In this document: piece by piece, positions 4,501 to 63,992 of the stretch | Layout of the letters: the number at the start of each line of letters is the position of its first letter | Position numbering within the stretch: position 1 is the stretch's first letter | Assembly (NCBI RefSeq): GCF_003860405.1 | Contig: NZ_CP034170.1 | Span: 3,224,001 to 3,288,000, forward strand | Length of the DNA stretch: 64,000 nucleotides | Source: Nakamurella antarctica | GTDB taxonomy: Bacteria; Actinomycetota; Actinomycetes; Mycobacteriales; Nakamurellaceae | Direction: 5' to 3' | Notes under the pieces: model-generated | What the model was told of the DNA's origin: nothing | Database searches by the model: none | The model's input: the letters and a program-made list of their open reading frames with translations, nothing else | Made by a program: the position numbers and the translations under genes

Positions 4501-5833
4501 TCACATCGAGCTGAGTACACACCCCGTTGTTGAGGGTGCTCTCCGTGCCCGCGCCGAAGTTCGACAAGCCAGCGGTATCCGACGGGTCCCAGTTACTCAC
4601 TCCGGTCCCGGCGACCCAAGGCGATCCCGGATTCGGTGATGAACACAGACCTTCATTGGTGGTGCCGACTGCGTTGCCGAAGTACAACGTGCCGGCGCCG
4701 TCACCTGCTGGGAGTGTGGCCGCATCGACGTCGGCGGACGGGATGCGAAGCTGCACCTGCGCCACGCCGTAGTACCCCTGGTGACCAGCCGATAATGCAA
4801 ACCCATAAGCGTCTTTGGTCGGTGTCGCGGCAGGGCGGTTGAAGTCAGGACTGAAGCTCACAGTGATAGGCGCGCCCGCAGCTGCTTGAACGCAGCTGGC
4901 GTTTGCGTTGGCGACCTGGCGGTCGTAGTCGATGGTGCTCCCGAACTGGATGCCGGGGATGTTGAAGGCGGAGATATTCACGTCGGTGCAGTTCTGCACG
5001 ACGGTGCCGGTGGGGGTGAAGATATCGCTGAAAACTACTGGCGCCGACAAGGCTGTGTTTCCGCGAGGGTCGGTGTCGGCCGAGCGAAGACCGATCATGT
5101 ACCGAGCGTTAAAACCTGCGGGAAGTGTTTGCGTCGCGGCAGCGAAGCTCGGGACGGCGGCAAGGTCTTTGACCAAATCCCACCGCGGGGCTGCCGAGGT
5201 AACGACCGGCACCGATGTCGCCGTCGCGGGGGTGCTCCCAACGTTGGTAACGGTGGCGGTGGCCGTAAAGCTCGCGCCGTCACCCATCGCCACCGGGGCA
5301 AACCCTGGAAGCTGAACGGTGCCGGTCGTGGAAGCTGCCAGCGGGCCTAAATTACAGGTGAACCCAGTGCGCGGGTTGAGAAAGGTCAGGCCCTTCTTGC
5401 ACACGCCAGTGGTCGGATCCGTGGACAAAATGAAAGAGGCCTCGATCAAGGCCCCGTTGGTCAACGACACCGTGAGGATAGTGTCTTCCGTGTTCAACGG
5501 GGGGTTGATTGAATAGTCGACGCTGTATTGGACCGTGTCACCTGTGCGGACGATCCCGTTGGAGGCGTTGAGGTCGTCGCCCGGTTCTTGGACGCCGTCA
5601 CCCGCGACACAAGGGGTGTCGATTGCGTCGGTACCGTCGTTGCACCAGTCCTCGAACGGGGCCGTACCGTCCGTCAGCTTCTGAATCTGCACGACCAACT
5701 CACTGGCGTTAGCCGTTAACGGCGCAAACAATTGAAGGCTCGCAGCGACAAGGCAGGTCACCGCCACAGTGATACCCGCGCGAAGGCACACTGTTTTGAG
5801 AGGAAAACGAGTTGCGGACACGGGCGACCTCAC
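1547..5833 (-). CDS. Large LPXTG-anchored surface protein with SdrD_B-like and DUF11-like repeats
   Basis: A 1428-residue secreted wall protein. The N-terminus has a signal peptide (hydrophobic stretch VAVTCLVAASLQLFAP, likely cut after TANA, about residue 43). Most of the body resembles conserved-repeat (DUF11-like) beta domains of the kind that form isopeptide bonds. Near residues 1110-1190 is an SdrD_B/SpaA-like fold (IGDFIFLDSNFNGRADAGE, a Ca-binding-type loop). It is followed by a further beta domain (GITLEKTV...), a Thr/Ser-rich spacer, and the sorting signal LPATG near 1396 with a membrane segment and the tail ARRRA. Sortase is inferred to anchor it to peptidoglycan. The chosen start is GTG at 5833; GTG at 5821 has a better placed GAGG and is a good alternative. 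No sortase gene is nearby. Adhesion or a structural role is inference. Confidence 0.85.
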   Translation of the reverse strand: MRSPVSATRFPLKTVCLRAGITVAVTCLVAASLQLFAPLTANASELVVQIQKLTDGTAPFEDWCNDGTDAIDTPCVAGDGVQEPGDDLNASNGIVRTGDTVQYSVDYSINPPLNTEDTILTVSLTNGALIEASFILSTDPTTGVCKKGLTFLNPRTGFTCNLGPLAASTTGTVQLPGFAPVAMGDGASFTATATVTNVGSTPATATSVPVVTSAAPRWDLVKDLAAVPSFAAATQTLPAGFNARYMIGLRSADTDPRGNTALSAPVVFSDIFTPTGTVVQNCTDVNISAFNIPGIQFGSTIDYDRQVANANASCVQAAAGAPITVSFSPDFNRPAATPTKDAYGFALSAGHQGYYGVAQVQLRIPSADVDAATLPAGDGAGTLYFGNAVGTTNEGLCSSPNPGSPWVAGTGVSNWDPSDTAGLSNFGAGTESTLNNGVCTQLDVNVSGRYYKSEVRGLGVALGGKFTSEIGFVNTGVADYPAGIALCDKWENDKFTLSAPTGTVGTPGGLPFTTNPIAPNPAGFNPYVGTFLTEYGIGPWGTHRIAATDSGEYQAQSANDCSAPQAIAGDADGWVTAADVDYTNSGLRLVNAANLNMARVTLNEAVPAGKSAGFTFVWEPLAGPNGQQMRNYASFKDSVNGVETATCTNFPDCTAPLAYTVSSGPQSSWWTLINGAVRVSKGNTDNGVSYGVGDTVPWVLVVQPAPGESAINLFNDGTTIGLTNDVAVVDTLPLGFTYVPGSANFQDSLTYPTAPPTPEPVLSFDSGGHQVMTWSMGDMPWFSTAIINYRAQIGGAVASGSHTNYVSINSPDRSGLPIRTPDEVAGFNDNGTLAANTVNVNGSNQAVISKAALTPLLDAGDVATYKLDFANNSAIDLNSFDAIDILPYVGDTRGSIIAPGSLTIKSVTPSIKGEVAWVSTTPPSTLDALDGPGLDGRVDPGTAAALGSAQWPCTFADVADANPATCAGVTLSMVTALRFVGSGPAYLPADSGIFSILLDFQTTAGAKPGDLYANSWEARFGDIALPVYFNAEIQPKIREVAIGDFIFLDSNFNGRADAGEAGVPGVTVLVYAAGAIVGTDTPVGVAVTDASGRWFVRGLAEGSYFVYVAATNFALNGPLEGYKVAPDGVVNPASGADEGVDHQATGATPAISGVRSGLVSLLIGGAPAGQTSPNNTGLPYEDTNLTVDFGFVGDSGITLEKTVGPVEGPYGETYAVGMDGVAEWQLVVTNTGAQTLSGFEFTDPTLQACLDDQELPEALQPGDSFAITCQESIAKGYVNTAVVRAYDEEENTVTDDDPAEVTVPVTTSTSTTTTSTSTTTSTTTSTTTSTSTGTTIATSPTTTSPTTTQPTFNSPSVTSPSVTSPSTSTKTSTSEVEGGSGSTSPSTMAGTPIKYLPATGSHTDTMVPWSMLLIGLGVGALLFARRRA
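1690..1935 (-). repeat. Low-complexity Thr/Ser coding repeat
   Basis: On the plus strand this is a run of GTTGTGGTGGAG-like units (clearest at 1830-1920). On the coding strand it encodes the Thr/Ser-rich wall-spanning spacer of the LPATG protein (TSTSTTTTSTSTTTS and similar). Such runs can change length by slipped-strand pairing. The Gly-rich and His-rich open frames across it on other frames are shadows. Confidence 0.8.
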
Positions 5834-7454: not shown

Positions 7455-8065
7455 ATGGACGCAATGACTACTACTTTCCTGGTGGTGGGCGGCCTCAGCG
7501 TCGTCATCCTGCTGATCTCCGTGGTAATCGGCGACGTAGCGCACTTCGGTGCGGACGCCGACGGGCCATTCTCACTTCCAGCACTTGCGGGGTTCTTCGG
7601 GGTGCAGGATTCGGTGGCGCGATCGCCGCCTCGTTACTCGACTCGCTGCCAGGCCTGGTCCGATTGCTGCTCAGCCTCGCAGTCGCTGGCGCGGTGGCTC
7701 TCCCACTGGCTTGGGCGGCGCTCAAGCTCGCTTCGACGCTTCTTAACATGCGCACCGACGCCACCGTAACCAGCACGTCATTGCTCGGCGCCCACGGAAC
7801 GGTAATCACCGCGATCACCTCTGCAGCAGCCTTCGGTGAAGTCCGGCTTACCCTCGGCGGTCACACGCTCAAATACAACGCCCGGAGCCAGACCCCATTG
7901 CCTGTCGGCACCACGGTGTACGTCGTGGATGTCCCTAGTTCCACGTCGGTGGAGGTAGTTTCCACCGCCTACGACGTGCCCGGCGCGGCTGGTCCCGGCG
8001 CGGGCGGTCCCGGCGCGGCCGGCTCGCACACCACCGAACCAGGAGCCAGCGCAGAACTTACGTAG
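7455..8065 (+). pseudogene. NfeD-like membrane protein, one-base frameshift
   Basis: Two frames together give one NfeD-like protein. ATG 7455, with AAAGGGG upstream, starts a frame with a membrane helix (TTFLVVGGLSVVILLISVVI) and PALAGFF. After the G run at 7599-7602 the homology moves to another frame (GFGGAIAASLLDSL, a second hydrophobic stretch, then an OB-fold-like beta domain with LLGAHGTVITAI) and ends at TAG 8063-8065. One extra G in the G4 run would restore a protein of about 203 residues. NfeD-like proteins partner with flotillins, and the flotillin gene follows 28 bases downstream, which supports the assignment. The shift may be a sequencing error rather than a true break. Confidence 0.8.
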
Positions 8066-14082: not shown

Positions 14083-15087
14083 TTAGCTGGGCGGCGCGGT
14101 GGTGGCGCGGTCAATAAGAACTGTTGCTACCTGGATAGTTTCGGGCTCACGCGACGGGCCGCACTTCATCAGTTTCAGAAGAAGCTCGGCTGCCAGTTCA
14201 CCTTGGTGGCGCACCGGTTGCGCGACAGTGGTGAGGCCGAAAAGGTAGGAAAGGTCATGGTCGTCGACTCCGACCACGGACAGCTCGCCAGGTACCGACA
14301 CCCCCATGGCCCGCGCCATGTGCAGGATGCCCATGGCGATTTCGTCGGATGCCGCCACGATCGCCGTGGGGTGCTCAGCCTCCTGCCACAGCTGCACGAA
14401 CGCGCTCTCCCCACCGAACACGCTGAACTCCGCGGGCAGAATCCAGTTCGCGCGGGGTTCAATACCCGCCGCTCTCAAAGCCTTCTCGTAGCCCGCCTGA
14501 CGATCGGGAGCCACGGGGAAGCCGAACATGTCGTAGGGGTCCCCGCCAAAGAACGCTATTCGGCGGTGGCCCAGGGTCAGCAAGTGCTGCGTGGCCATAA
14601 TTCCCACCCGGACGTCATCGACGCTCACGGAAGAAAAACCGGGAGCTGCCGGCCCCACCGTGACGAGTGCTGAGCGAGAGGCTTGCAACGCTTCGGCTTC
14701 GGAGTGAGAGAGGTTGACGGACAACGCCAGCACCCCGTCCACACGCTTAGAAAGCACCCGCGCGTCGATGGTCCGCGGCCTGCTCGTCGACGTACCAGCG
14801 GCATAGAGCACTAAGTCGTAGCCGTGGTGCGCCACCACCTCCTGAGCACCTTCCACCACTGCATTGAAAAACCACCGAGAGATCCACGGCACCAACACGC
14901 CGATGGCCTTGGTCTTGCCGGTGGGAAGGCTGGACGCCGAGGGCGACGCGACGTATCCCAATTGATCTGCTGCGAGCCGGATGCGCTCGCGGGTGTTGTC
15001 CGAGACGCCTGGAAGACCCCGCAGTGCCCTGGAAACTGTGGCCGGCGACACGCCGACATGGGCTGCTAGATCAACGATTCCACTCAT
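14083..15087 (-). CDS. LacI-family transcriptional regulator
   Basis: A 334-residue repressor. The N-terminal helix-turn-helix and hinge are seen in VDLAAHVGVSPATVSRALRG and ...RIRLAADQLGY, then a periplasmic-binding-protein-like sensor domain (KTKAIGVLVPWISRWFF, ...GHRRIAFFGGDP, TAIVAASDEIAMGIL). It is the last gene of the sugar ABC operon, 58 bases after the second permease, so it most likely controls that operon by binding the imported sugar. Its ATG lies inside a 14-bp inverted repeat described separately. Confidence 0.9.
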   Translation of the reverse strand: MSGIVDLAAHVGVSPATVSRALRGLPGVSDNTRERIRLAADQLGYVASPSASSLPTGKTKAIGVLVPWISRWFFNAVVEGAQEVVAHHGYDLVLYAAGTSTSRPRTIDARVLSKRVDGVLALSVNLSHSEAEALQASRSALVTVGPAAPGFSSVSVDDVRVGIMATQHLLTLGHRRIAFFGGDPYDMFGFPVAPDRQAGYEKALRAAGIEPRANWILPAEFSVFGGESAFVQLWQEAEHPTAIVAASDEIAMGILHMARAMGVSVPGELSVVGVDDHDLSYLFGLTTVAQPVRHQGELAAELLLKLMKCGPSREPETIQVATVLIDRATTAPPS

Positions 15088-52586: not shown

Positions 52587-53294
52587 TCAACCGACCTCGA
52601 CGCTGAAATGCCATCCTAAAAAGCCACTTGTAAAATTCCAAGGCTGCCCCCTGGCGTCTATCTTTTGCCAGTTCGCGCTCGTAAGTAGTTCTCGCATTAC
52701 CCAAGGAACCATTATTGCGCTTCGATCACGCGATTCTTGCGTCGCGATTTCTATGCCAGACCTCGTAAAAACTTTGAGTTGAATTACAGTGTCCACATCG
52801 TCAAACGAAATTTTAAATACAGTTTTGAACCTTCTGTCCGGGCTCAGCTTTGGTTTTGACTCAAGGATGAACTCAAGATGTTCGTCTACACATCCTCTAT
52901 AGGTCTGATTTAGGAGCATTTCGTCCCAATCGCGCAATTTCGCTAAAACGATCAGAATATTTTGAAGCCAATCGAGCATGCGCATGTTCCGCTCATAGCC
53001 ATGACATTTCAGCGCTGTTGCGTCTATACCGGAGTAGGCTGTTTCGAATATACCCAAATCTATTCTTGTGATTGGGTCACCGAACTCTAGCTGATCTTGA
53101 CCCTCCCGGATGAATATACGCAGGTGAGGCGCCATAGCTGGGACGCCCCCAAGTTTGGTAAGTTGCCGGTTGTACAAGTTCACTACTGTGTGCGAAATCC
53201 AAAGGAAATGTTTTTCATTACGGGTGGGCTCGCATTCTATAGGCAACGCGTTCGAATGAAGGTCTATTGACTTCAGCTTTCTAGGGTTTTTCAC
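52587..53294 (-). CDS. Candidate immunity protein of Rhs module e
   Basis: A 235-residue soluble protein, paralogous over its whole length to the protein at 59933-60640 (shared HTVVNLYNRQLTKLGGVPAMA, ESKPKLSPDR, GWHFSVEVG ends). No named family. It begins 30 bases after the stop of Rhs module e, and its paralogue begins 30 bases after module f, so the pair is a conserved toxin-immunity arrangement. Confidence 0.7.
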   Translation of the reverse strand: MKNPRKLKSIDLHSNALPIECEPTRNEKHFLWISHTVVNLYNRQLTKLGGVPAMAPHLRIFIREGQDQLEFGDPITRIDLGIFETAYSGIDATALKCHGYERNMRMLDWLQNILIVLAKLRDWDEMLLNQTYRGCVDEHLEFILESKPKLSPDRRFKTVFKISFDDVDTVIQLKVFTRSGIEIATQESRDRSAIMVPWVMRELLTSANWQKIDARGQPWNFTSGFLGWHFSVEVG

Positions 53295-55867: not shown

Positions 55868-56102
55868 AGGTGTTCACAACCGGTATGCCCCTGCCCTGCC
55901 GCAATGAGGGAGGTAGCATCCGCTCAATTCATCGTTCGGTACCCCCACCGGCTGGGATAGCCGCAATGCAAACGATCGTTACTGATACAACATTCAAGTG
56001 TCGATGTCCGAAGTGGCCTGCAAGGTCTGCCGTGTCATGGTCGGTGCTGTGCAGGCCAGTGCGGATATCTGAATGGTCGAAGTTCTCTGCGCTAGTGCTG
56101 TT

Positions 56103-56732
56103 TTATGATGAAGCTTGCGGCAACAAGGTCGAAGACGATGAGGTCATCGGTTCGTTGTTGAGTGCTCGTGACCTTCGGTAGAACGTCGCGCGGGACATCC
56201 CGAGGTCGCGCGTTACTTGGGCGGCTGGTGTGCCACTTTGGATGAGGCTGAGGGCGCTGCCGATCTGGCTGTCAGTGATGCGTCGAGGCCGACCGCCGAG
56301 GTTCTTGCCGGCCGCTTTGCGTTTGCTGATTGAGTCGGTGATGCGTTCACTTTTAATCTCGTGTTCCATCTGCGCCAGTGCAGCCATGATCGTGAACAGC
56401 ATCGACCCCATCGGTGATGACGTATCAACATCACCTCCGCCCAAGTTCAGAACACGCAGCCCAGCACCGCGTCCTCGCAGCTCGTCAGCGAACGCGAGCA
56501 TATTTTGCGTAGACCGGCCGAGCCGGTCAAGCGTCGTGATCACGAGGGTGTCGCCGTGGATTAGCGCATCGAGTGCTCGAGCGAACTGGGGACGCGATGC
56601 TTGCGCCCCGGAGACTCCGTGATCAACGTAGAGGTCATCGCGCCGAACCCCAGCGGATAGGAGGTCCGCTTCCTGGCGGTCAGTTGACTGCTGTTTCGTC
56701 CAAACACGCGCGTAGCCGATCAGCTTCGACAT
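56103..56732 (-). CDS. Serine recombinase with Trp in place of the catalytic Ser
   Basis: A 209-residue resolvase-type protein. The N-terminal motif reads IGYARVWTKQQ, where family members have YARVST; the codon is TGG instead of, for example, TCG. The other conserved parts are kept: LDRLGRS, MGSMLFTIMAALAQMEHEIKSERI, and the helix-turn-helix TPAAQVTRDLGMSRATFYRR. If the base is right, strand cleavage should be lost and the protein could only bind DNA. It starts 14 bases from palindromic site S4. Confidence 0.87.
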   Translation of the reverse strand: MSKLIGYARVWTKQQSTDRQEADLLSAGVRRDDLYVDHGVSGAQASRPQFARALDALIHGDTLVITTLDRLGRSTQNMLAFADELRGRGAGLRVLNLGGGDVDTSSPMGSMLFTIMAALAQMEHEIKSERITDSISKRKAAGKNLGGRPRRITDSQIGSALSLIQSGTPAAQVTRDLGMSRATFYRRSRALNNEPMTSSSSTLLPQASS

Positions 56733-56745
56733 GGTCTCCTCCGGG

Positions 56746-56809
56746 GTGTCTCATAAGTGATGGTGTGTCGACAGATTCAACCAGAAGGTTGCGAGACATA
56801 GTTACGAGA
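56746..56809. repeat. Palindromic site S4
   Basis: Left part GTGTCTCATAAGTGATGG, right part GGTTGCGAGACATAGTTACG. The outer left arm equals the outer arm of S2 and S6; the right part has the same two nested GGTTRCGAGA units as S2. The central bases differ. It lies directly upstream of the Trp-variant recombinase. Confidence 0.65.
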
Positions 56810-56884
56810 ATCGCTGCCTGTGGAAAGCACGCTCAACAGAGCGAAAACTGGACTGTCAGCACCACCGCCCTGGAGCGGTCGATG

Positions 56885-56916
56885 AGACACCTCGTATCCC
56901 TAGGATTGCCAGACGC
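56885..56916. repeat. Palindromic site S5 (core only)
   Basis: CCTCGTATCCCTAGGATTGC, with the CCCTAGG centre also found in S3, and CAGAC after it. In the 56733-57079 gap no gene is seen; sites S4 and S5 are its content. Confidence 0.55.
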
Positions 56917-57079
56917 TGCGATAGTGGAGTTCCCTCCTTGAGTTCATAACCTTAGCGCCCGATCATGCGGCTTGATGGCGGGCAGGGTAGAGGCACCACC
57001 GCTGCCCATGAACGCATCGACGCCAATGGTGGCGTGGGAGTGCCCGGTGGCCGCCCTGTGTGTGTGATTAAGTGGGGCG

Positions 57080-57486
57080 TCAGCTAGAAAGGTGGATCAA
57101 CCCGGCTGGTGTTGCACGAAATCCGCACGCCGCAATGTAGAACGCGGTCAGTGACGGCTCGAAATCGACGAATAGCCACTCGCATCCTGCCGCACTTGCT
57201 TCTTCAGCTGCTCGGGCGACGATGGCCACTCCGAGACCTTGTCGTCGGTGGGTTGGTCGAGTCCTCGTGTCGATGAGGAACGCATGCCCCCACCGTCCCA
57301 GGCAACGTTGACGAAGCCAACGAGTTGGTCGGCCGCAGTCCGAGCCGTCACCCACCCCAACGAATGTTCTCGCACCTGATCCCACCAACCAGCCTTAGGG
57401 GAGCCGCCGTGTGAGCGGGTTAGCTCACCAACTTCGCCGTCCGACACGGGCGCCCGCCACTCGATCTTTAGGTCTTTGTTCGACAT
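57080..57486 (-). pseudogene. GNAT N-acetyltransferase, one-base frameshift
   Basis: The first frame from ATG 57486 gives the N-terminal strands (IEWRAPVSDGEVGELTRSHGG, WVTARTAADQLVGFVNVAWDG). At the C run 57287-57291 homology moves to a second frame (HAFLIDTRTRPTHRRQGLGVAIVARAAEEA), where the acetyl-CoA loop is RRQGLG, and ends FYIAACGFRATPAGLIHL. One more G on the coding strand joins them into about 135 residues. Acceptor unknown. Confidence 0.8.
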
Positions 57487-57618
57487 CTCTCGAAGGTGTC
57501 GCGCGATGAGTCGCGGCGCAAGCTGAACATTTCCCGGGACTCACCTCACCACCGGGGAATGCGAGCGACCTGCGGTACACGATCGCCGTTGCCGTTCCTT
57601 AGCGGGCAAACAAGCAGC

Positions 57619-58158
57619 CTATTGTTCAGCTCCTCCCCATCCAGAGATTGCCTTGACTTCGGTCGCAATGGCGCAGACTTCGCGTCGGTCGGTGGATATA
57701 CGGTGCACCGCCGACGACGCGTTGAGCTGAAGTTTCGCCGCAGCTGCCTTACTGCGCTTGATTGCATCTTCTAACCCTGACCCGATTTCGCGTTGCGCCA
57801 ACCGATCGGCAGCGGTGGAATCGTTCGCCGTGAGGAGCGCACCTATTGCGCTGACATCCGCACCGAGGGCTGCGGACAGACTCGGCATCTCCAGCACGCT
57901 CACAGTGTTTGTGAAGATCAAGCGCGAGTAACCTGCAGCTCGGTAGTTTCTCCACATCGCGGCAAGGTTTTGTTCGGCGAGATCGATGCCGTCCCGCCAG
58001 GGCTCGGGATGCGCCTGATCAAGGTTGTCGCCCTCGATCAGAGCATGGACGATGTCCTCAATCGCAAACAACCGCGAGAGTTCCGCAGCTACTGAGGTTT
58101 TCCCAACTCCAGAGCGCCCACTGATGAAAATCACCTCGGTCGTTTTCGCTGGTTGCAT
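57619..58158 (-). CDS. P-loop kinase-like ATPase
   Basis: A 179-residue nucleoside/adenylate-kinase-like protein. Walker A ISGRSGVGKTSVAAEL; the second acidic position is ALIEGDNLDQAHP; the lid-like basic part is RLAQREIGS. It resembles shikimate/gluconate-kinase-type or aminoglycoside-phosphotransferase-like AAA kinases often carried as accessory genes. Start at ATG 58158 (MQPAKTTEVIF). Substrate unknown. Confidence 0.72.
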   Translation of the reverse strand: MQPAKTTEVIFISGRSGVGKTSVAAELSRLFAIEDIVHALIEGDNLDQAHPEPWRDGIDLAEQNLAAMWRNYRAAGYSRLIFTNTVSVLEMPSLSAALGADVSAIGALLTANDSTAADRLAQREIGSGLEDAIKRSKAAAAKLQLNASSAVHRISTDRREVCAIATEVKAISGWGGAEQ

Positions 58159-58261
58159 TCCCTTAGCGTGACACGGTGCGGCGCAAATGGTCCTGATCAA
58201 TATGAACGAGCAGCGCCCAAGCCCATCGCCACGTAACCGGGCGCCCTCAGGTCCTGAGTAA

Positions 58262-58512
58262 AAGGTGCTCATCGGTGATAGTTACGACAACGCGTTGGCC
58301 GAAACCGTGAACGGTCTTACAAAGCTGAGTTGGTGTACTGGGAAGGGCTGTGGCGCAACGCATCTGACCTAGAACTGTCGACCGTTGGATGAGTCGACTG
58401 GTTCAACAACACCAGCATCCACTCAGCCCTGGGCTACCGGACACCGCCCGAGGCCGAAGTTGAGTACTACAGTCAGCAAAATACTCCCGCCGAGCATCAG
58501 CTTGTTGGGTAA
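58262..58512 (+). mobile_element. IS3-family transposase C-terminal remnant
   Basis: YDNALAETVNGL, then a frame slip, KAELVYWEG, a stop in place of Trp, then VDWFNNTSIHSALGYRTPPEAEVEYY ending at TAA 58510-58512. This is the end of an IS3 OrfB integrase domain, decayed. Confidence 0.82.
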
Positions 58513-58544
58513 ACCATCCTCCACAAAACCCGGGGTGAATCACA

Positions 58545-58823
58545 TTGCGAACCAAAGCCACCCCGACCATCGACCGCACAGGTGACACCCACGACCGGGT
58601 CCGTGAGGACCGGGTCAACAAATCAGGCACCATCACCCTGCGCCACAACGGGAAGCTGCACCACATCGGAGTCGGCCGAACCTACGCCGGAACCTACGTC
58701 ACAGTGCTCATCCAAGACCGAGACATCACCATCGCCGAAACCACCACCGGGCAGCTCATCCGAGAACTGATACTGGACCCCACCCGCGACTACCAACCCA
58801 CCCGCCAAACAAAAAACTCCTGA
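58545..58823 (+). mobile_element. IS481-family transposase C-terminal part
   Basis: An open frame of 92 residues: [55 protein letters not shown]. This matches the small C-terminal domain of actinobacterial IS481 transposases; the DDE core is missing. Confidence 0.82.
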
Positions 58824-58871
58824 ACCTACAAAACGTAGGTTCAGGAGTTTCCGATGTCCTGAGACATCACA
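58814..58871 (+). terminator. Hairpin and IS481 terminal repeat
   Basis: A perfect 16-bp stem (58814-58829 with 58835-58850, loop AAAAC) follows the IS481 end and looks like an intrinsic terminator. Next, 58851-58871 (CCGATGTCCTGAGACATCAC) has the form of an IS481 terminal repeat. Rhs sequence of module f starts directly after it, so the IS interrupted that gene. Confidence 0.75.
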
Positions 58872-58872
58872 G

Positions 58873-59902
58873 TTCCGGTGGGACGGTCACCATCACCTAC
58901 ATTCGGGACACCGCAGACCGGGTCACCGCGAGGATCATCGCCGGTTCCGCCACCCCGGCGGAGAATGGCACTTTCCTGTACGGGTTCACCTCCACCGATG
59001 ATTCCGCTGACCTGGACCTCGGCGCCGGCAACGTCATGATCACCCGAATCAATAGCCTCCCCGGGGGTGTGACATACACAAAGAACTACCAAACCGTCGC
59101 AGATAGCAGGTGGCATTACCCGAACATTCACGGCGACAACATCATCACCACCCTGCCCACCGGAACCATCGACGGGACGGTGAAGGTCTACGACCCCTAC
59201 GGCGCCCCCATCACCACCGGCGGAACCCCAGACTTCGACGCTGTCCCGAACACCAACCCCTCCGCCTACGACACGGGGTGGCTCGGTCAGCACCAACGGA
59301 TGGCCGAACACACCGCCAACCTCACCTACACCCACATGGGCGCCCGCGTTTACGACCCCACCACCGGCCGGTTCAACAGCATCGACCCCGTCGCCGGCGG
59401 CGGCGCCAACGACTACGCCTACCCCACCGACCCCATCAACATGACAGACCTCGACGGCCGCTTCTGGTGGTGGGTACCTATAGCAACGTATCGAGTGTAT
59501 AAAGCAATCAAAGCCGGTCCGCCAAAGCCGACCGGAGTGATAACCAAAGGCAATGCGCTAGGTAAAGTCCTCAGTAAGATGGAAGTCGGTGGGGTGTATG
59601 TTTCCCGTCATTCAAACAAATGGCCAGGCATATCTTGGGGTTACCAAATAAACTACGCGGTAAATAAGAACGGGTTAGGAGGTATAGTATGGAAATATGG
59701 CATTACATCAGTGGATTCAGCACCGAATGAGAGGGCCGACTCTCAAAAGCCTACGTGTGAAAGGCGGACTGGCACAAAATGCAGAGTTGCTTACCAAATT
59801 ACTTTTCCAAATAGGCAAGCTGCCAGAAATTGGGAGCTAGGTATTTGTGGCGCTTATCTGAGTAGATACGGCGGAGTTCCGCCAGGTTCTACTCGATGCT
59901 AA
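58873..59902 (+). pseudogene. Rhs orphan module f: core end plus tail
   Basis: Opposite strand to the other modules. Core from [14 protein letters not shown] (start cut by IS481) through [15 protein letters not shown] to [19 protein letters not shown]. The tail from [21 protein letters not shown] is homologous to module e, with a few more residues in the middle ([17 protein letters not shown]) and the same [12 protein letters not shown] end. No frame break from core to tail. Confidence 0.83.
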
Positions 59903-59932
59903 TGGTTAAGAAAATTGCAAGGGGTTGTGTAA

Positions 59933-60640
59933 ATGAAATACCCACGAAGGCTAAAATCAATAGACCTCTATCCCAACCCTTTCCCAGATGGAAACGCTCC
60001 CACTGCGAAGGAAGAACAATATAACTGGGTTTCGCATACGGTTGTGAATTTATACAATCGGCAACTTACCAAACTGGGGGGTGTTCCTGCCATGGCATCG
60101 CACCTGCGTGTATTTATCCGGGAGAACCAAGACAATTTACGATTAGGTGACCCTATCATTCGAACAGATCTGGGCGTCTTCGAAGCGGCCTTCTCCGGCA
60201 TCGATGAAGAGGCGCGGACCTTGATCGGCTTCGAGCGGAATTTGTACCTGTTGAACTGGCTTCAAAACATTCTGCTGACCATGGCAAAGGCGCGAGATTG
60301 GGATAGAACAATCTTGGACAAAGCCTATCAAGGATGTATAGATGAGGGCCTCGAATTTACCTTGGAATCAAAACCCAAACTAAGCCCAGATCGAAAGTAT
60401 AAATCCAGTTTCAAAATTGCTTTTGATGATTTAGATACAGTAGTCAGTCTAAGAGTTTTGACCAGGTCTGGCATTGAAGTCGCAGCGCAGCAAGCGCGGG
60501 ATCGGAACTCAATAATGGCTCCCTGGGCGATGCGTGAACTGATTGCGAGAGCAACTTGGCGAAATACTGGTATCGAAGAGAAGCCATGGATTTTCTCGAG
60601 CGGTTGGTTGGGGTGGCACTTCAGTGTCGAGGTCGGATAA
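59933..60640 (+). CDS. Candidate immunity protein of Rhs module f
   Basis: A 235-residue protein, paralogue of 52587-53294: same length, same start (MK-PR-LKSIDL) and end (GWLGWHFSVEVG), with many changes in the middle (EEARTLIGFERNLYLLNW). Such divergence fits immunity proteins tuned to slightly different toxin tails. Confidence 0.7.
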   Translation: MKYPRRLKSIDLYPNPFPDGNAPTAKEEQYNWVSHTVVNLYNRQLTKLGGVPAMASHLRVFIRENQDNLRLGDPIIRTDLGVFEAAFSGIDEEARTLIGFERNLYLLNWLQNILLTMAKARDWDRTILDKAYQGCIDEGLEFTLESKPKLSPDRKYKSSFKIAFDDLDTVVSLRVLTRSGIEVAAQQARDRNSIMAPWAMRELIARATWRNTGIEEKPWIFSSGWLGWHFSVEVG

Positions 60641-60649
60641 CCCATGGTG

Positions 60650-60880
60650 GTCAAACTATTTTTAACTATTGATTTGAACTGCTTACTTGCATCTCTACTG
60701 AATTATCCACCAATAAGCGCCAACGTGAGGTTGGGGTTGCAGTCTGTTGCTGAGATGTTGGGTCGTTGTGAGGGGCGGTGTCATACCCTCGAAGCATCAG
60801 CCCAATGAAGGGCGGTGTAGAGCCAGTTGATCTGAAATGGGTGCTGGGTTGATGCGCAGGGCTGTGACTTTTAGCGCCCG
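60650..60880. repeat. Inverted copy of the 52.38-52.59 kb segment
   Basis: Matches the reverse complement of 52376-52586 by eye (for example CACCAATAAGCGCCAACGTG). It completes the right arm of the large inverted repeat. In 60641-61077 no gene is seen beyond this. Confidence 0.75.
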
Positions 60881-61077
60881 CGCGAGGATGGGCGGCTGGT
60901 TTATATCTTGTCCCTCCCCTGCGCTCTGGTGGGTTTCGCGAGCCTGCCAGGAGTGATACTGGCTTGAAGTGGATGGCACCTCCACTCGGTCCTGAATCGG
61001 TGCCGAGACTCACCTTGGGTAATTACATGCCTACCCGTCGAGCGCTAGCCCACCTCGTCCAAATCGTTTAGGGATCC

Positions 61078-61697
61078 CTATCCGATACTGGTTTTCGGGG
61101 GTTCGACCTGCTGGTCGAGGTGTCGGTAGATGGTGGGTCTGGTGACGCCGAATTCGGCGGCGATTTGGGCGACCGTGTATTTGGTTTTGCCGTCTTCGGC
61201 GAGTTCGTCGTACATCTGTTGGGCCATTTTGATTTGGCGTGGTCCGAGTTTGGGTTTTTGGCCGCCGACCCGGCCGCGGGCCCTAGCCGCGGCGAGTCCG
61301 TCGCGGGTGCGTTCTGACATGAGGGCGTGCTCGAATTCGGCTATTGATCCGAGTATTTGGAAGAACATCCGGCCGACTGCGGTGGAGGTGTCGATGCCTT
61401 GGTCCAGAACGACAGGTCGATTCCGCAGTCCTGGAGTTGTTTGGACAGCTCGAGCAAATGGTCTAGGGATCTGCCGAGCCGGTCGAGTTTGGTGATGACG
61501 ATCTGATCACCGGCGCGGTTGGCCGACAGCAATGCTGCTTTGTCCAACTGCGGGCGGCGGGCCAGTTTGGCGCTGGCTTTGTCGAGGTAAATCTCATCGC
61601 AGCCGGCGGCAGTGAGGGCGTCGTATTGGGCTTCTGGGTGTTGGTCCCGGGTGGAGACCCGTCCGTAGCCGATTCGCAGCTGTTTGATGTATCGCAA
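61078..61697 (-). pseudogene. Serine recombinase, one-base frameshift
   Basis: The first frame has the catalytic Ser in IGYGRVSTRDQ and LDRLGRSLDHLLELSKQL. One base is missing near 61413; the second frame continues VVLDQGIDTSTAVGRMFFQILGSIAEFEHAL, then MSERTRDGLAAARARGRVGG and the helix-turn-helix YTVAQIAAEFGVTRPTIYRHL. Joined it is a full resolvase of about 206 residues. It lies beside the palindromic sites of the cassette-like array. Confidence 0.85.
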
Positions 61698-61821
61698 ACG
61701 AGGGAGTGCGTGGCATAGGCGCGGACACGGGTTGGGTTACAACATCGACCTGCGGCGATGGCATGGCTTGATGTCGATGTTCGAACTGGTCTGCACGAAT
61801 GTTCGAAGTCGACTGCACGGC

Positions 61822-61881
61822 ACGCTCGTATCGGTATGTCTTGATTCCCATGGGTTTGGAGGCAGTTGGGTTTCGAGACAC
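61822..61881. repeat. Palindromic site S1
   Basis: Centre CCCATGGG at 61847-61854, flanked by TGTCTTGATT on the left and GGTTTGGAGGCAGTTGGGTT on the right, then TCGAGACACA. The right half lines up with S2 without gaps (GGGTT..GAGGCA...GGTT..GAGACACA). Content of the 61698-61987 gap. Confidence 0.7.
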
Positions 61882-61987
61882 AACCGTGACGGGGGCGGGT
61901 ATTCTTCCAGCGATCTGGTGGTTTCTACCTGACATACCGTCGGATTAGAAATGCAATAGACCCCCGATGGGGAGGGAAGGTTTAATA

Positions 61988-62368
61988 ATGGGCCCCAGTC
62001 AACTTGACGACGTGTACAGCGCATTGCGAGGAATCATGCTGAAGCACGCTAAGGATCTTGTTGCGGCAACGGATTCTTCAGGGCATCTCTCGATAGAGGC
62101 CAAAGAACCTGGCGGCAATGGAATGAGGTCTTGGTACGGGGGCGTCCAGACGAAAAAAAACTATGTGAGCTATCACCTGATGGCCGTGTACGAGGACCCT
62201 GAGCTGCTGAACGATATCTCCACGAAACTTCGCGTACGCATGCAGGGAAAGTCTTGTTTTAACTTCAACGCGCTGAACGACGAGCTATTCGCTGAACTCG
62301 ATGCGCTTACAGGGGTGGGATTCTGCGAGTTCGCATTGCGTCACAACCCGCCCACGGAGATTCAGTAG
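61988..62368 (+). CDS. Hypothetical protein (cassette gene 1)
   Basis: A 126-residue soluble protein from ATG 61988, with GGGAAGG upstream. Mixed alpha-beta pattern (LDDVYSALRGIMLKHAKDLV, KNYVSYHLMAVYEDPELL, SCFNFNALNDELFAELDAL), like small proteins of the YdhG/DUF1801 type, but I cannot name it. It lies alone between sites S1 and S3 on the same scale as the other two cassettes. Confidence 0.65.
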   Translation: MGPSQLDDVYSALRGIMLKHAKDLVAATDSSGHLSIEAKEPGGNGMRSWYGGVQTKKNYVSYHLMAVYEDPELLNDISTKLRVRMQGKSCFNFNALNDELFAELDALTGVGFCEFALRHNPPTEIQ

Positions 62369-62504
62369 GCATCGGGCGCCGGTAGCTGGCGCCGCCCTCT
62401 TGAGGGCTAGCTCGCCGCCGTGTCGAAGTGCCTTCTACCTAACATTCCGAGCTGTCCGGTTACATCAATGTGTTCGCTTATTCTCGCATCTGCTCGTGGT
62501 ACCC

Positions 62505-62535
62505 GGATTCGCGTAACCCTAGGGTTGCGAGACAG
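62505..62535. repeat. Palindromic site S3
   Basis: GATTCGCGTAACCC, centre CCCTAGGG (62518-62523 region), then GGTTGCGAGACA. Inner arms match S2 (CGTAACCC and GGGTTACGAG). Outer arms are weak. It lies between cassette genes 1 and 2. Confidence 0.62.
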
Positions 62536-62684
62536 TAGTGAGCTGTTTCGCAGGAAGCCCCGGTCCTGGAATGAACCTGCGGTCGCCGACCTGTGACCTA
62601 AGGATTTGCCAGTTGGGTTCGGTTTGCAGGACGAGGGGTGCTGGCGGCCGGGGAACACAGGTGGGCCATCCAGAACAGAAGGTG

Positions 62685-63053
62685 CTAGTCCACAGAATTA
62701 ACGTGGAAGTAGCCCACCACTCTGCGACCTTCAGCGATTGCCAGAAGAGTCCCAGGGCGGACGCGCTGTGCACCACGATTCTTCACGATCGACCATGACG
62801 CGTCCGCAACGGAAAGCCATGCAGTCGGATCCTCGGCTCGCACCACGAACCCGGCTAGCCCAGTCTCGAAGGAGTGCGGCGGTACGTACGCATTGGCGAT
62901 GTACACCTCGCCGGTAGGTGTTGGAGGCGGCCCCGTGTCGCGACCGCCCTGCGAGGAAGTCAGCCAAACGACGCGGCCGTGAAAGGGTGTGGGGCCTGAG
63001 TAGTGCACGCCCGAAGTATCCCGCATCCCGCTTGGTGCATGGGTCTGCTGCAC
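62685..63053 (-). CDS. Hypothetical protein (cassette gene 2)
   Basis: A 122-residue protein (start GTG 63053 or ATG 63026). Pattern of a beta-rich fold: SGPTPFHGRVVWLTSSQGG, VYIANAYVPPHSFETGLAGFVVRA, GTLLAIAEGRRVVGYFHV. It recalls hypothetical proteins of actinobacteria; function unknown. It runs against the direction of cassette genes 1 and 3. Confidence 0.65.
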   Translation of the reverse strand: MQQTHAPSGMRDTSGVHYSGPTPFHGRVVWLTSSQGGRDTGPPPTPTGEVYIANAYVPPHSFETGLAGFVVRAEDPTAWLSVADASWSIVKNRGAQRVRPGTLLAIAEGRRVVGYFHVNSVD

Positions 63054-63144
63054 GATCCGGTGTCACCGCGGCTGGGGTCTCCAAATCAGTGCGTCGCGCC
63101 CCCGCAGGCAAGGCGTGGGGAGCTTTGCGCGATGGATGGCACAT

Positions 63145-63190
63145 GTGTCTCATAACTGTTCTGTCTCGAATCTCATGGCTTGTGGGACTG
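63145..63190. repeat. Palindromic site S6
   Basis: GTGTCTCATAAC at 63145-63156 is identical to the outer arm of S2, and TGTCTCGAATCTCA follows at the same spacing; by eye 22 of 31 bases of the left half match S2. The right half is diverged. It separates cassette genes 2 and 3. Confidence 0.65.
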
Positions 63191-63292
63191 GTGCGCCCGT
63201 TGCCGCTGCGGGTGGTGGCGTTTTCAATGTGCATCCGAGGAGAGACATGCGCGCTGGGTGAGTGGACTCTTGTCGGTGCCTATGCTTGACTC

Positions 63293-63898
63293 GTGGCAAA
63301 TTCGGCGGAGTTCGCATACTCCCGGCGCGCGGAAGATTACATCAATCTTCTTGGTTCGATGAGTGCAGTGCATCCTTCGGATCAGCAACTCGTGGCCACC
63401 TGGGCGGATAGCCTTGAGGGCGACGCCATCGATGCCGGGTGCGGGCCGGGCCATTGGACGGACTTCCTCAGCGAGCGCGGGGTCGCCGCCCGTGGAATTG
63501 ACCAAGTGCCCGAGTTCGTTGAAAGTGCTTGCTCCACGTATCCCAGCCGTGCGTTCCTAGTGGGAAACCTCGAGACTCTGGATGCCAGCACTTGCTCAGT
63601 AGGTGGGGTGCTCGCTTGGTACTCGCTCATTCACCATGAGCCGGACAAAATCCATATCCCATTGCACGAGTTTCATCGTGTGCTGCGGCCCGGTGGTGGA
63701 CTGCTGGTCGGCTTCTTTGAGGGCGCCACCGTGGAGAAATTCGCGCACGCAGTCTTTCCTGCTTACCGGTGGCCGGTGAGTGCCTTTAGTGAGAAGTTAA
63801 GAGCGGTGGGGTTCGACGTAATCGAAACGCATGCACGATCGACAGCTGGTCAACGGCCCCACGGGGCCATCCAGGCGCGACGCAGAGGGCGCCCGTAA
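63293..63898 (+). CDS. SAM-dependent methyltransferase, class I (cassette gene 3)
   Basis: A 201-residue methyltransferase. Motif I is AIDAGCGPGHWTDFL, followed by an acidic post-I residue in ARGIDQVPEFVE, then LETLDAS, LAWYSLIHH and HRVLRPGGGLLVGFFEG. GTG 63293 start. Related small methyltransferases act on small molecules; substrate unknown. Flanked by S6 and S2. Confidence 0.85.
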   Translation: MANSAEFAYSRRAEDYINLLGSMSAVHPSDQQLVATWADSLEGDAIDAGCGPGHWTDFLSERGVAARGIDQVPEFVESACSTYPSRAFLVGNLETLDASTCSVGGVLAWYSLIHHEPDKIHIPLHEFHRVLRPGGGLLVGFFEGATVEKFAHAVFPAYRWPVSAFSEKLRAVGFDVIETHARSTAGQRPHGAIQARRRGRP

Positions 63899-63930
63899 CC
63901 GCATCGACTCAAATACGTAGTCGTCGTAGA

Positions 63931-63992
63931 GTGTCTCATAACCTAAATGCCTCGTAACCCATGGGTTACGAGGCATTTCGGTTATGAGACAC
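63931..63992. repeat. Palindromic site S2, 62-bp near-perfect
   Basis: Two 31-base arms, complementary except for one pair, around CCCATGGG. Each arm holds two direct copies of TGYCTCRTAACC 16 bases apart (63932 and 63948). This is the clearest copy of the site and serves as reference for S1 and S3-S6. Confidence 0.85.

Follow-up and report, generated by a model that had tools for sequence, protein, structure and literature searches.

Soil-type actinobacteria carry rows of swappable single genes, with short matching sites between them, beside a serine recombinase. By their sequence these rows look like a counterpart, evolved separately, of integrons, which are known for shuffling antibiotic-resistance genes. 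We are fairly confident that such gene-cassette arrays are built by a small serine recombinase of the resolvase/invertase type. We also consider it likely that they represent a second, independently evolved kind of integron, in which the recombinase captures, stacks and swaps single-gene cassettes via polar double-strand sites; this kind would reside mainly in Micrococcales, on Tn402-like transposons and plasmids, and would have spread horizontally into the genome of Nakamurella antarctica, from which the window (the whole 64,000-nucleotide stretch analysed here) was taken. A serine-recombinase-driven cassette system unlike integrons had been suggested in a preliminary description of the window, and the clustering of the sites and the core-to-core sharing of cassettes between genomes lend support to this suggestion.

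Sites and genes of the window

All six related palindromic sites of the preliminary description (S4, S5, S1, S3, S6 and S2) were located at the positions it had given, and the order S1, ORF, S3, ORF, S6, methyltransferase gene, S2 was confirmed from the ORFs and the site positions. The features of the region are as follows:

55999..56023, plus strand: Tn402-like terminal-repeat motif just past the 3' end of the left recombinase gene (type-b motif, score 24.5)
56103..56732, minus strand: small serine recombinase, left copy, 209 aa (Pfam Resolvase and HTH_7; 98% identical to the right copy)
56747..56813, minus strand: S4, recombinase-proximal accessory half-sites of the attI-like region, not a cassette site
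56888..56915, minus strand: S5, attI-like 28-bp core, centre ~56901 (CTAG), score 40.9
57080..57486, minus strand: GNAT-like fragment in two frames beside attI, judged from ORF translations (longer frame without a Pfam match)
57619..58158, minus strand: P-loop NTPase/kinase-like gene, longer ORF to 58272 (AAA_18, E 2e-6, just under the Pfam cut-off)
61078..61697, minus strand: second small serine recombinase, interrupted, its two parts (118 + 96 aa) in different frames (ORF and Pfam evidence)
61772..61818, plus strand: pair of Tn402-like terminal-repeat motifs adjoining S1, at the array's outer end (scores 26.6 and 22.3)
61837..61880, plus strand: S1, cassette site, core CATG, third half-site towards the right-hand recombinase, score 55.1
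61967..62368, plus strand: cassette gene, hypothetical protein, 133 aa, no Pfam family
62507..62534, no strand assigned: S3, degenerate core (CTAG), score 20.7
62685..63053, minus strand: cassette ORF, hypothetical protein, 122 aa (ORF list)
63146..63189, minus strand: S6, cassette site, core CATG, orientation reversed, score 44.7
63293..63898, plus strand: cassette gene, SAM-dependent methyltransferase, 201 aa (Methyltransf_25, E 1e-12)
63932..63991, no strand assigned: S2, near-perfect palindrome, scores 62.6 and 63.8 in its two orientations
Past S2, outside the window, in order: a sigma factor and 383-aa gene pair, a GNAT gene, an attI-like/cassette-site doublet, a 441-aa ORF, attI (genome 3,292,223-3,292,250) and a serine-bearing recombinase

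Cassette sites are 44 bp long and consist of a 28-bp palindromic core plus a third half-site; S1 and S6 have three half-sites each and S2 has four. As cassette separators, the role originally given to all six sites, S1, S3, S6 and S2 were retained, whereas S4 and S5 form the attI-like region and are not cassette boundaries. The array continues past 64 kb, a point that the preliminary description had proposed to check: outward-facing recombinases flank the window array on both sides, and it extends to a second recombinase copy that has the catalytic serine and its own attI-like site.

A scan for the core with at most six mismatches returned 112 matches, some of them overlapping, in 87 sequences versus none in one shuffle of each. 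With a weight matrix, 210 matches at a score of at least 8 were obtained in 918,273 bases, as against 0.67 per Markov-shuffled set. Window positions scoring at least 15 all fall within 56.9-64.0 kb and the best score in 100 window shuffles was 15.4, a test that is partly circular because S1, S2 and S6 belong to the 31 oriented training sites; the core-mismatch scan is less circular. Across the genome, the sites fall only into two clusters, corresponding to two arrays, and those of the window are part of one. A known RNA element was also considered and dropped, with no Rfam match in 55.5-64 kb.

Recombinases

The Resolvase N-terminal domain, HTH_7 (Pfam) and a catalytic serine identify the enzymes as small serine recombinases of the resolvase/invertase type. 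Two serine recombinases had been described beside the sites. Both are present, but the left one has Trp in place of Ser11, whereas the catalytic serine is found in the other 50 of 51 translated recombinases (a stop or frameshift interrupts five of the 51), and the second is broken into two frames. Judging from these lesions, the left copy, with its Ser11 replaced, is probably inactive, and the same probably applies to both recombinases inside the window. The right copy, located outside it at genome positions 3,292,406-3,293,032 and starting 4.4 kb past its end, retains the catalytic serine and is likely the enzyme of this genome. The recombinase of another array (L178) is itself frameshifted. 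Relatives of the recombinase were not returned by a scan of viral contigs, and the attI-recombinase DNA had no match among annotated phages.

The attI-like region

Related loci follow a recurring plan, with a small serine recombinase ~160-190 bp from a res-like "attI" core. The attI-like site lies upstream of the start codon and has the architecture of a res site: accessory half-sites adjoin the gene, and the 28-bp crossover core lies farther away from it. Half-sites like those of S4 adjoin the recombinase start codon in most of 49 related loci. The distal half-site of S5 is degenerate, and the S5 core is the point where identity with the right-hand copy ends.

The attI-recombinase unit is constant and the neighbouring DNA is variable, with the break at the core. 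For 43 attI loci (903 pairs), mean pairwise identity reaches 0.72 and 0.83 in the core halves versus 0.26, the chance level, on the distal side up to 14 bp from the centre. With HSPs limited to 85% identity or more and 500 bp or more, 44 recombinase pairs remain: homology begins within -25 to +5 of the core centre in 31, is lost within the spacer in 12 and extends 55 bp past the core in one. Doublets of attI-like and cassette cores, 58-84 bp, were also observed.

The central bases of the two site types differ, being CATG in 63 of 107 distinct cassette cores, and CTAG (39 of 82) or CTTG (22 of 82) in attI cores. Small serine recombinases are generally held to require identical 2-bp overlaps. 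This mismatch counts against the cassette model, and an inefficient reaction between cassette and attI sites would weaken it. A plain resolvase role is also likely for the recombinase, because 31 of 50 loci with an attI-like site show no cassette site (in up to 6 kb of DNA per locus) and seven of 13 plasmid records carry attI alone.

Site polarity and array layout

The third half-site points towards attI in all 17 non-palindromic sites of the recombinase-centred loci, which contain two further palindromes, and in 53 of 58 non-palindromic sites, plus ten palindromes, of 28 genome-drawn loci. S6 is among the five exceptions, and some stretches (L188, L191, L235 and L242) contain both orientations. 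Another 54 genome-drawn sites have no attI in their stretch, so their polarity could not be scored; six loci repeating earlier ones were dropped from this count. Cassette sites were required to score 25 for the recombinase-centred polarity and the core counts, and 30 for the genome-drawn polarity and the end-motif counts.

Arrays reach eight cassette sites in a single orientation (L179, L180 and the second array of the window genome), and most cassettes hold one or two unrelated genes. With intervals above 6 kb or of mixed polarity left out, 48 of 72 intervals contain one or two predicted genes, with a median of 1.44 kb, and gene direction is mildly biased, 93 of 148 genes pointing away from the recombinase; these counts may include some places twice, because some loci were probably entered under two names (e.g. 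L006/L189, L022/L222, L017/L183, L018/L184 and L064/L226). The 97 cassette proteins match 92 Pfam families, none with more than three members, and eight PADLOC families, none with more than two. Conserved families of cassette ends were noted as well.

Cassettes shared between genomes

Four cassette pairs, each drawn from different genomes or from two positions in a single genome, are almost identical between their cores, whereas the DNA beyond the cores has diverged or is unrelated. The L021/L022 cassette is ~99.7% identical over 2.1 kb within diverged attI-recombinase units, and the L189/L223 cassette is 99.3% identical over 1,295 bp with unrelated DNA on both sides. The remaining two are the L191/L238 cassette (94% over 0.72 kb) and a duplicated cassette in the second array of the window genome (90.6% over 1.09 kb). 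An array of cassettes exchanged between genomes at the site cores, as in integrons, is what these pairs display. An earlier idea, that attI-like cores are the sole crossover points, was dropped, because shared cassettes end at cassette cores, which are boundaries too. Plasmids of two Clavibacter strains carry an identical single site, with no gain or loss between them, and a plasmid search with the L021 cassette returned distant matches only, mostly to ketosynthase genes.

Transposon platforms

Tn402-like ends and target duplications identify some platforms as transposons, and one of these is complete, with tniA and tniB. Tn402-like terminal repeats with a 5-bp target duplication were found in L036 and L178, while another type of end is accompanied by a 9-bp duplication in L022 and by 8 of 9 matching bases in L032. 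Target duplications were not found in L021, L025 and L039, nor at the first array of the window genome, where the end motif at 55999..56023 is mirrored past the right recombinase copy. Of 100 recombinase matches, 43 are followed within 420 bp by an end of either type, and end motifs lie 20-160 bp from a cassette site on the outer side of 15 of 110 sites and on the other side of none; both counts may include duplicated places. Most internal sites thus show no sign of insertion. One site with an end motif, at 14215 of the joined stretch of the second array, is internal.

In tblastn searches, which did not cover L211-L250, TniA-like sequences were detected at 63% or more in L024, L028 and L036, with weak matches of 26-32% in L012, L015, L025 and L044; TniB-like sequences were detected in L024, L028, L036 and L041. 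L036 contains Pfam TniB and a TniQ-like stretch without a Pfam match. In the loci searched, one Tn3 TnpA query, taken from the plasmid locus L088, recovered nothing but L088 itself at E 1e-10.

Distribution

A close recombinase was counted by hand in 32 of 63 genomes with sites versus 42 of 232 others (p 5e-7), an association that is partly built in because the 63 include genomes matched at attI cores only. For genomes with full-length sites, the hand count is 24 of 48 (p 4e-5), the other 24 being without a close recombinase at E 1e-55. Within the order of N. antarctica, the site pattern was found only in the window genome (one of 397, and none of 16 congeners). Plasmid records include 28 recombinase carriers at E 1e-40, from genera of the order Micrococcales. 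Of 13 plasmid records, five have one or more cassette-type sites and one has no site, besides those with attI alone; some places may be represented twice.

Proposed mechanism and alternative explanations

The platform of the proposed mechanism carries the recombinase and an attI-like site, and several such platforms are transposons with Tn402/Tn5053-like ends. Each cassette would span from one core centre to the next, its end away from the recombinase comprising a core half and an extra half-site 4 bp further, and this third half-site would give the near-palindromic site its polarity. We infer that the recombinase is the catalyst and acts at the core centre to join two sites. A cassette would thereby leave as a circle and could enter again at attI or another cassette site. 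Entry would occur mainly at attI, and the cassettes would presumably be expressed.

An unlikely alternative is that the recombinase serves only as a cointegrate resolvase (TniR type) of Tn402-like transposons, with attI as its res site, and that the arrays arose by repeated insertion beside res followed by resolvase deletion and homologous recombination, leaving genes that are remnants and not capture units. The res-like architecture, the ends following many recombinase matches, the complete transposon with tniA and TniB, the attI loci without a cassette site and the one internal site with an end motif fit this history, and passages of PMC7157771 describe res-site exchange of toxin-antitoxin modules in the Tn3 family; however, most internal sites lack any trace of an insertion, the cassettes that loci have in common extend from core to core and contain no terminal repeats, and polarity is predominantly uniform. 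Still less probable, to the point of being very doubtful, is a shufflon-like invertase that turns round the segments between oppositely oriented sites to produce phase variation. The solved structure closest by sequence is an entry named DNA-invertase, presumably Gin, and the window array between outward-facing recombinases, the reversed S6 and the four stretches with both site orientations would suit such an enzyme. Yet most sites share one orientation relative to attI, the genes between sites come from unrelated families, and the same cassettes occur in different genomes.

In array layout, cassette content and gene-then-site order, the loci resemble integrons. A true integron, whose attC sites would be unusual and whose tyrosine integrase would be encoded at another place in the genome, is nevertheless an explanation that we regard as highly improbable and have rejected, with neither an IntI-type integrase above the cut-off nor the attC R-box pair. 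The preliminary description had reported both absences, and both hold: TIGR02249 has no match above the cut-off in the genome, and its five weaker matches, at 0.22, 1.12 and 1.44 Mb, lie far from both arrays (14 control genomes also match below the cut-off). The GTTRRRY/RYYYAAC pair is found in none of 30 aligned sites, GTTRRRY alone occurring in one (in the spacer of S1) and RYYYAAC alone in one, and it is a serine recombinase that is linked to attI. It is just as hard to credit that the sites are terminators or a dispersed palindrome family (REP/MITE). They are indeed palindromic and intergenic, but they have an asymmetric third half-site, a predominant polarity and exchange boundaries at their cores. 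A genome-wide scatter among unrelated genes without cassette exchange had been named as the outcome that would speak for such a family; the opposite was found, with two clusters only and cassettes common to different genomes, and a dispersed REP/MITE family is refuted by this distribution.

Comparison with known systems

The array would work like an integron, yet by the tests run it is not one. Like integrons (class 1 on Tn402 and chromosomal arrays), it combines a constant recombinase and attI end with small cassettes having one site each, site polarity, cassettes common to genomes and a platform on Tn402-like transposons. It differs in having a serine and not a tyrosine recombinase, and a 28-bp palindromic core with a third half-site where integrons have a folded attC. 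Features in common with Tn402/Tn5053 and their TniR/res are a small serine recombinase with a res-like site in the platform, Tn402-like terminal repeats, target duplications of 5 bp and, in the complete transposon, tniA and tniB. In contrast to those transposons, the L036 recombinase is convergent with the tniQ-like gene and has its site towards the cargo, which contains more cassette sites; tni genes occur in few of the loci searched, and on some platforms the ends are of the other type, with a 9-bp duplication.

Tn3-family tnpR/res has the same arrangement of a crossover core distal to the gene and accessory sites beside it, and neighbouring modules are exchanged at the core centre, as here, according to passages of PMC7157771. 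Here, many cores occur in one array, and the one TnpA query matched its own locus only. Genes bounded by recombination sites and located in islands are also described for the pdif (Xer) modules of Acinetobacter in passages of PMC12907356, but these involve XerCD tyrosine recombinases and dif sites in C/D and D/C orientation, and no dedicated recombinase and attI appear in those passages.

Implications

To our knowledge, no dedicated system other than the integron has been well described that uses a recombinase of its own to stack single-gene cassettes, and integrons are rare in Actinobacteria. A full-text search of the open-licence PubMed Central literature (titles and starts of abstracts, preprints excluded) yielded no description of a serine-recombinase cassette system. 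If the proposed system is real, its polar, res-like sites would be usable in DNA assembly, and its arrays would point annotation and surveillance to a reservoir of mobile, unknown genes. The strategy of stacking cassettes would then have evolved more than once, and Actinobacteria would gain a gene-capture route of their own.

Site architecture and array extent

The palindromic sites of the window are built from a 12-bp half-site, roughly TGTCTCRTAACC, two copies of which flank a 4-bp centre to form a 28-bp palindromic core. The preliminary description had placed six such sites, S4, S5, S1, S3, S6 and S2, and this placement was borne out. S1, S6 and S2, the cassette-type sites, carry a third half-site 4 bp beyond the core, and a fourth half-site in S2 extends it to a near-perfect palindrome of ~60 bp. 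S5 is the core of a separate site type that is owned by the recombinase (hereafter attI), and S4 is the accessory portion of the same site, adjoining the recombinase start codon. When the full 64-kb window was scanned, scores of at least 15 were confined to 56.9-64.0 kb; the best score over 100 window shuffles was 15.4.

The window spans bases 3,224,001-3,288,000 of its source contig (3.38 Mb), which holds the following elements:

56103-56732 (-), left recombinase
61078-61697 (-), second recombinase
S2 to right recombinase copy: sigma-factor gene with a 383-aa gene after it; GNAT gene; doublet of attI-like core and cassette site; 441-aa ORF
genome 3,292,406-3,293,032, right recombinase copy, opposite in direction to the left copy and 98% identical to it
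genome 0.9999-1.0112 Mb, second array: truncated recombinase relic, attI-like core and eight cassette sites in a single orientation

A matching attI-like region precedes the right copy, and the attI-recombinase unit is present at both ends of the first array as an inverted duplicate. In the left copy Trp replaces the catalytic serine, the sole such case among 51 translated recombinases (five of the 51 contain a stop or frameshift), and the reading of the second recombinase at 61.1-61.7 kb is split between two frames; the right copy is therefore the likely enzyme. The preliminary description had set a genome-wide scatter of the sites against its cassette reading. Instead, all 10 genomic matches of the core pattern lie inside the two arrays, as do the 14 matches of a 30-site profile, and the reversed control of the core pattern gave no match in the genome.

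RHS-type C-terminal fragments, about 80-95% alike, are repeated at 49.7-60.7 kb in direct and inverted copies, one of them inside the first array between S5 and S1, and a related 235-aa gene follows two of the fragments (52587-53294 (-) and 59933-60640 (+)). By eye, remnants resembling IS3/IS481-type transposases in broken frames were seen at about 58.26-58.82 kb. Directly past the right recombinase, at 7196-7758 of L073 (L-numbers denote the fetched loci), two ORFs were recognised from their translations alone, one for a RelE-like toxin and one of 100 aa for an antitoxin-like protein.

The attI-like region

A core was found by eye upstream of the recombinase start in 43 of 49 related loci; it is absent in L008, L015, L023, L040 and L066 and aberrant in L057. 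The core begins 159-191 bp ahead of the start (median 183, 41 loci measured), and accessory half-sites lie immediately ahead of the start codon in most of the 49 loci. Conservation runs along the recombinase side up to the core, and on the far side it comprises the 12-bp half-site alone. Across 43 loci (903 pairs, two loci of the window genome included), mean identity is 0.26 at positions -60 to -14, reaches 0.72 and 0.83 in the two halves of the core and is 0.65 immediately past it. Among 44 close recombinase pairs (at least 85% identity over 500 bp), homology starts within -25 to +5 of the core centre in 31, further inside in 12, and extends 55 bp further out in one. No cassette site accompanies attI in the DNA examined at 31 of 50 attI loci, and 7 of 13 plasmid records carry attI alone; such lone recombinases may simply resolve multimers.

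Arrays, polarity and cassette content

In the fetched regions, cassette sites form arrays of uniform orientation, and an attI core closes some of these arrays. Doublets recur in them, each made up of an attI-like core that carries about 20 bp of attI and, 58-84 bp further on, a cassette core.

L178, seven cassette sites and six more attI-like or degenerate cores, recombinase frameshifted; doublets at 7622/7698, 10224/10300 and 10998/11056
L179, eight cassette sites, no recombinase within the stretch examined; doublets at 5126/5192, 9124/9189 and 11441/11507
L180, eight cassette sites
L181, six cassette sites, recombinase of intact length
L073, doublet at 4674/4740

The third half-site points toward the recombinase at 17 of 17 sites in recombinase-centred loci, two more sites being four-half-site palindromes. 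In 28 genome-drawn loci it points toward the nearest attI at 53 of 58 sites, with 10 palindromes besides and with 54 sites lacking a usable attI in the stretch left out of the count; the five exceptions are two L180 sites, one each in L232 and L235, and S6. Genes also tend to run away from the recombinase (93 of 148, p 0.002, the genes not being independent).

The 72 intervals of unanimous polarity have a median length of 1,437 bp. With a simple purpose-written gene finder, one gene was predicted in 26 of them, two in 22, three or more in 19 and none in five. A Pfam scan of 97 cassette proteins matched 92 families, with at most three members per family, among them acetyltransferases, toxin-antitoxin parts, regulators and transporters. 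Cassette ends in L018, L035, L046, L051 and L071 form families with about 50-125 bp in common immediately before the outer half-site. Integron attC sites likewise form families.

Cassette exchange

Shared segments are bounded by cores on both sides in four cases:

L021 (Pseudarthrobacter) with L022 (Arthrobacter), about 99.7% over 2.1 kb from cassette core to attI core; the attI-recombinase parts on one flank and the outer end on the opposite flank are clearly diverged
L189 and L223, 1,295 bp at 99.3%, with background identity on either side; at the right boundary divergence sets in midway through the core, at its 4-bp centre, and the far half of this core is non-canonical in L223
L191 and L238, 0.72 kb core to core at 94%
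second array of the window genome, a nucleotidyltransferase-gene cassette present twice, 90.6% over 1,088 bp, both ends at cores

Other pairs, such as L192 and L194, have a single core boundary in common.

Transposon platforms

Homology between loci frequently stops at a terminal motif, of two types, just past the recombinase stop codon. Such a motif lies at most 420 bp after 43 of 100 recombinase matches, a set that takes in distant relatives, some loci in duplicate and two matches in L178. L036 (Arthrobacter sp. 135MFCol5.1) is a whole element of 10,107 bp with a 5-bp target duplication and inverted ends that resemble those of Tn402. Its order is end, cargo, cassette site, cargo, weak cassette site (score 24), cargo, attI, recombinase, convergent tniQ-like, tniB and tniA genes, end. 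The entire L178 array likewise lies between Tn402-like ends with a 5-bp duplication, and a search for tni genes in this locus found none. L022 has the other end type with a 9-bp duplication, L032 a duplication matching at 8 of 9 bases, while L021, L025, L039 and the first array of the window genome have ends but no duplication. On an Arthrobacter alpinus plasmid (L210, 1022-5321), a TniA/TniB transposon carries a different, codirectional resolvase that is 40% identical to the array recombinase.

These platforms raise the alternative that the arrays are scars of Tn402-like transposons that inserted next to res sites. End motifs occur 20-160 bp from cassette sites on the outer side of 15 of 110 sites and on the other side of none, and therefore most internal sites bear no sign of a transposon end. 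This is the chief objection to such an origin, although one of the 15 motif-bearing sites, in the second array of the window genome, is internal.

Distribution among relatives

Relatives of the left recombinase are encoded at the 68 loci sampled, most of which come from Arthrobacter and its neighbours, from Microbacteriaceae and from Brevibacterium; Propionibacteriaceae and Aeromicrobium are each represented by one MAG so labelled. Array-bearing strains include Arthrobacter sp. 135MFCol5.1 and Paenarthrobacter sp. Z7-10. Genomes with site-profile matches (E 1e-3) number 63 of 295 in one family, some of the 63 matching at an attI core only, 44 of 299 in another, and, in a sample drawn from across the class that counts the window genome, 5 of 394. 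By hand count among the matches listed, a close recombinase accompanies full-length sites in 24 of 48 genomes, above the overall rate of 74 of 295. A stricter pattern was found in 1 of 397 genomes of the order, the window genome alone; given this and the matches in other families, the cassette system looks acquired by the window genome.

Proposed mechanism and relation to known systems

The recombinase is a member of the resolvase/invertase class. Among proteins of solved structure, gamma-delta resolvase and a DNA invertase, presumably Gin, are its closest relatives by sequence. A core length of 28 bp belongs to the res plan. This plan is described in PMC7157771 as a core plus accessory sites adjoining the gene. 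Given the enzyme class and this plan, the most economical model is that cassettes would be excised and inserted through strand exchange in the middle of the core, the third half-site setting the direction. Sites, predominant polarity, boundaries and platforms are observed; catalysis by this recombinase, circular cassettes, a preference for entry at attI and cassette expression would be predictions of the model. Several observations do not fit the model: the recurring doublets, the half of the genomes with full-length sites that lack a close recombinase, the many recombinases that stand alone, and the core centres. Recombining sites usually have identical overlaps, but the central 4 bp are CATG in 63 of 107 distinct cassette cores and CTAG (39 of 82) or CTTG (22 of 82) in attI cores, which breaks this rule.

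Two integron features were looked for, the integrase in the window genome and the pair of attC boxes at the sites, and neither was found. It resembles the res-site module exchange of Tn3 elements and the pdif module islands but differs from both in enzyme or site grammar and in array form. No account of it was found in full-text searches of open-licence PubMed Central papers. By analogy, the cassette system would behave as an integron carried by a Tn402 platform; its enzyme and transposon platform come from known families.
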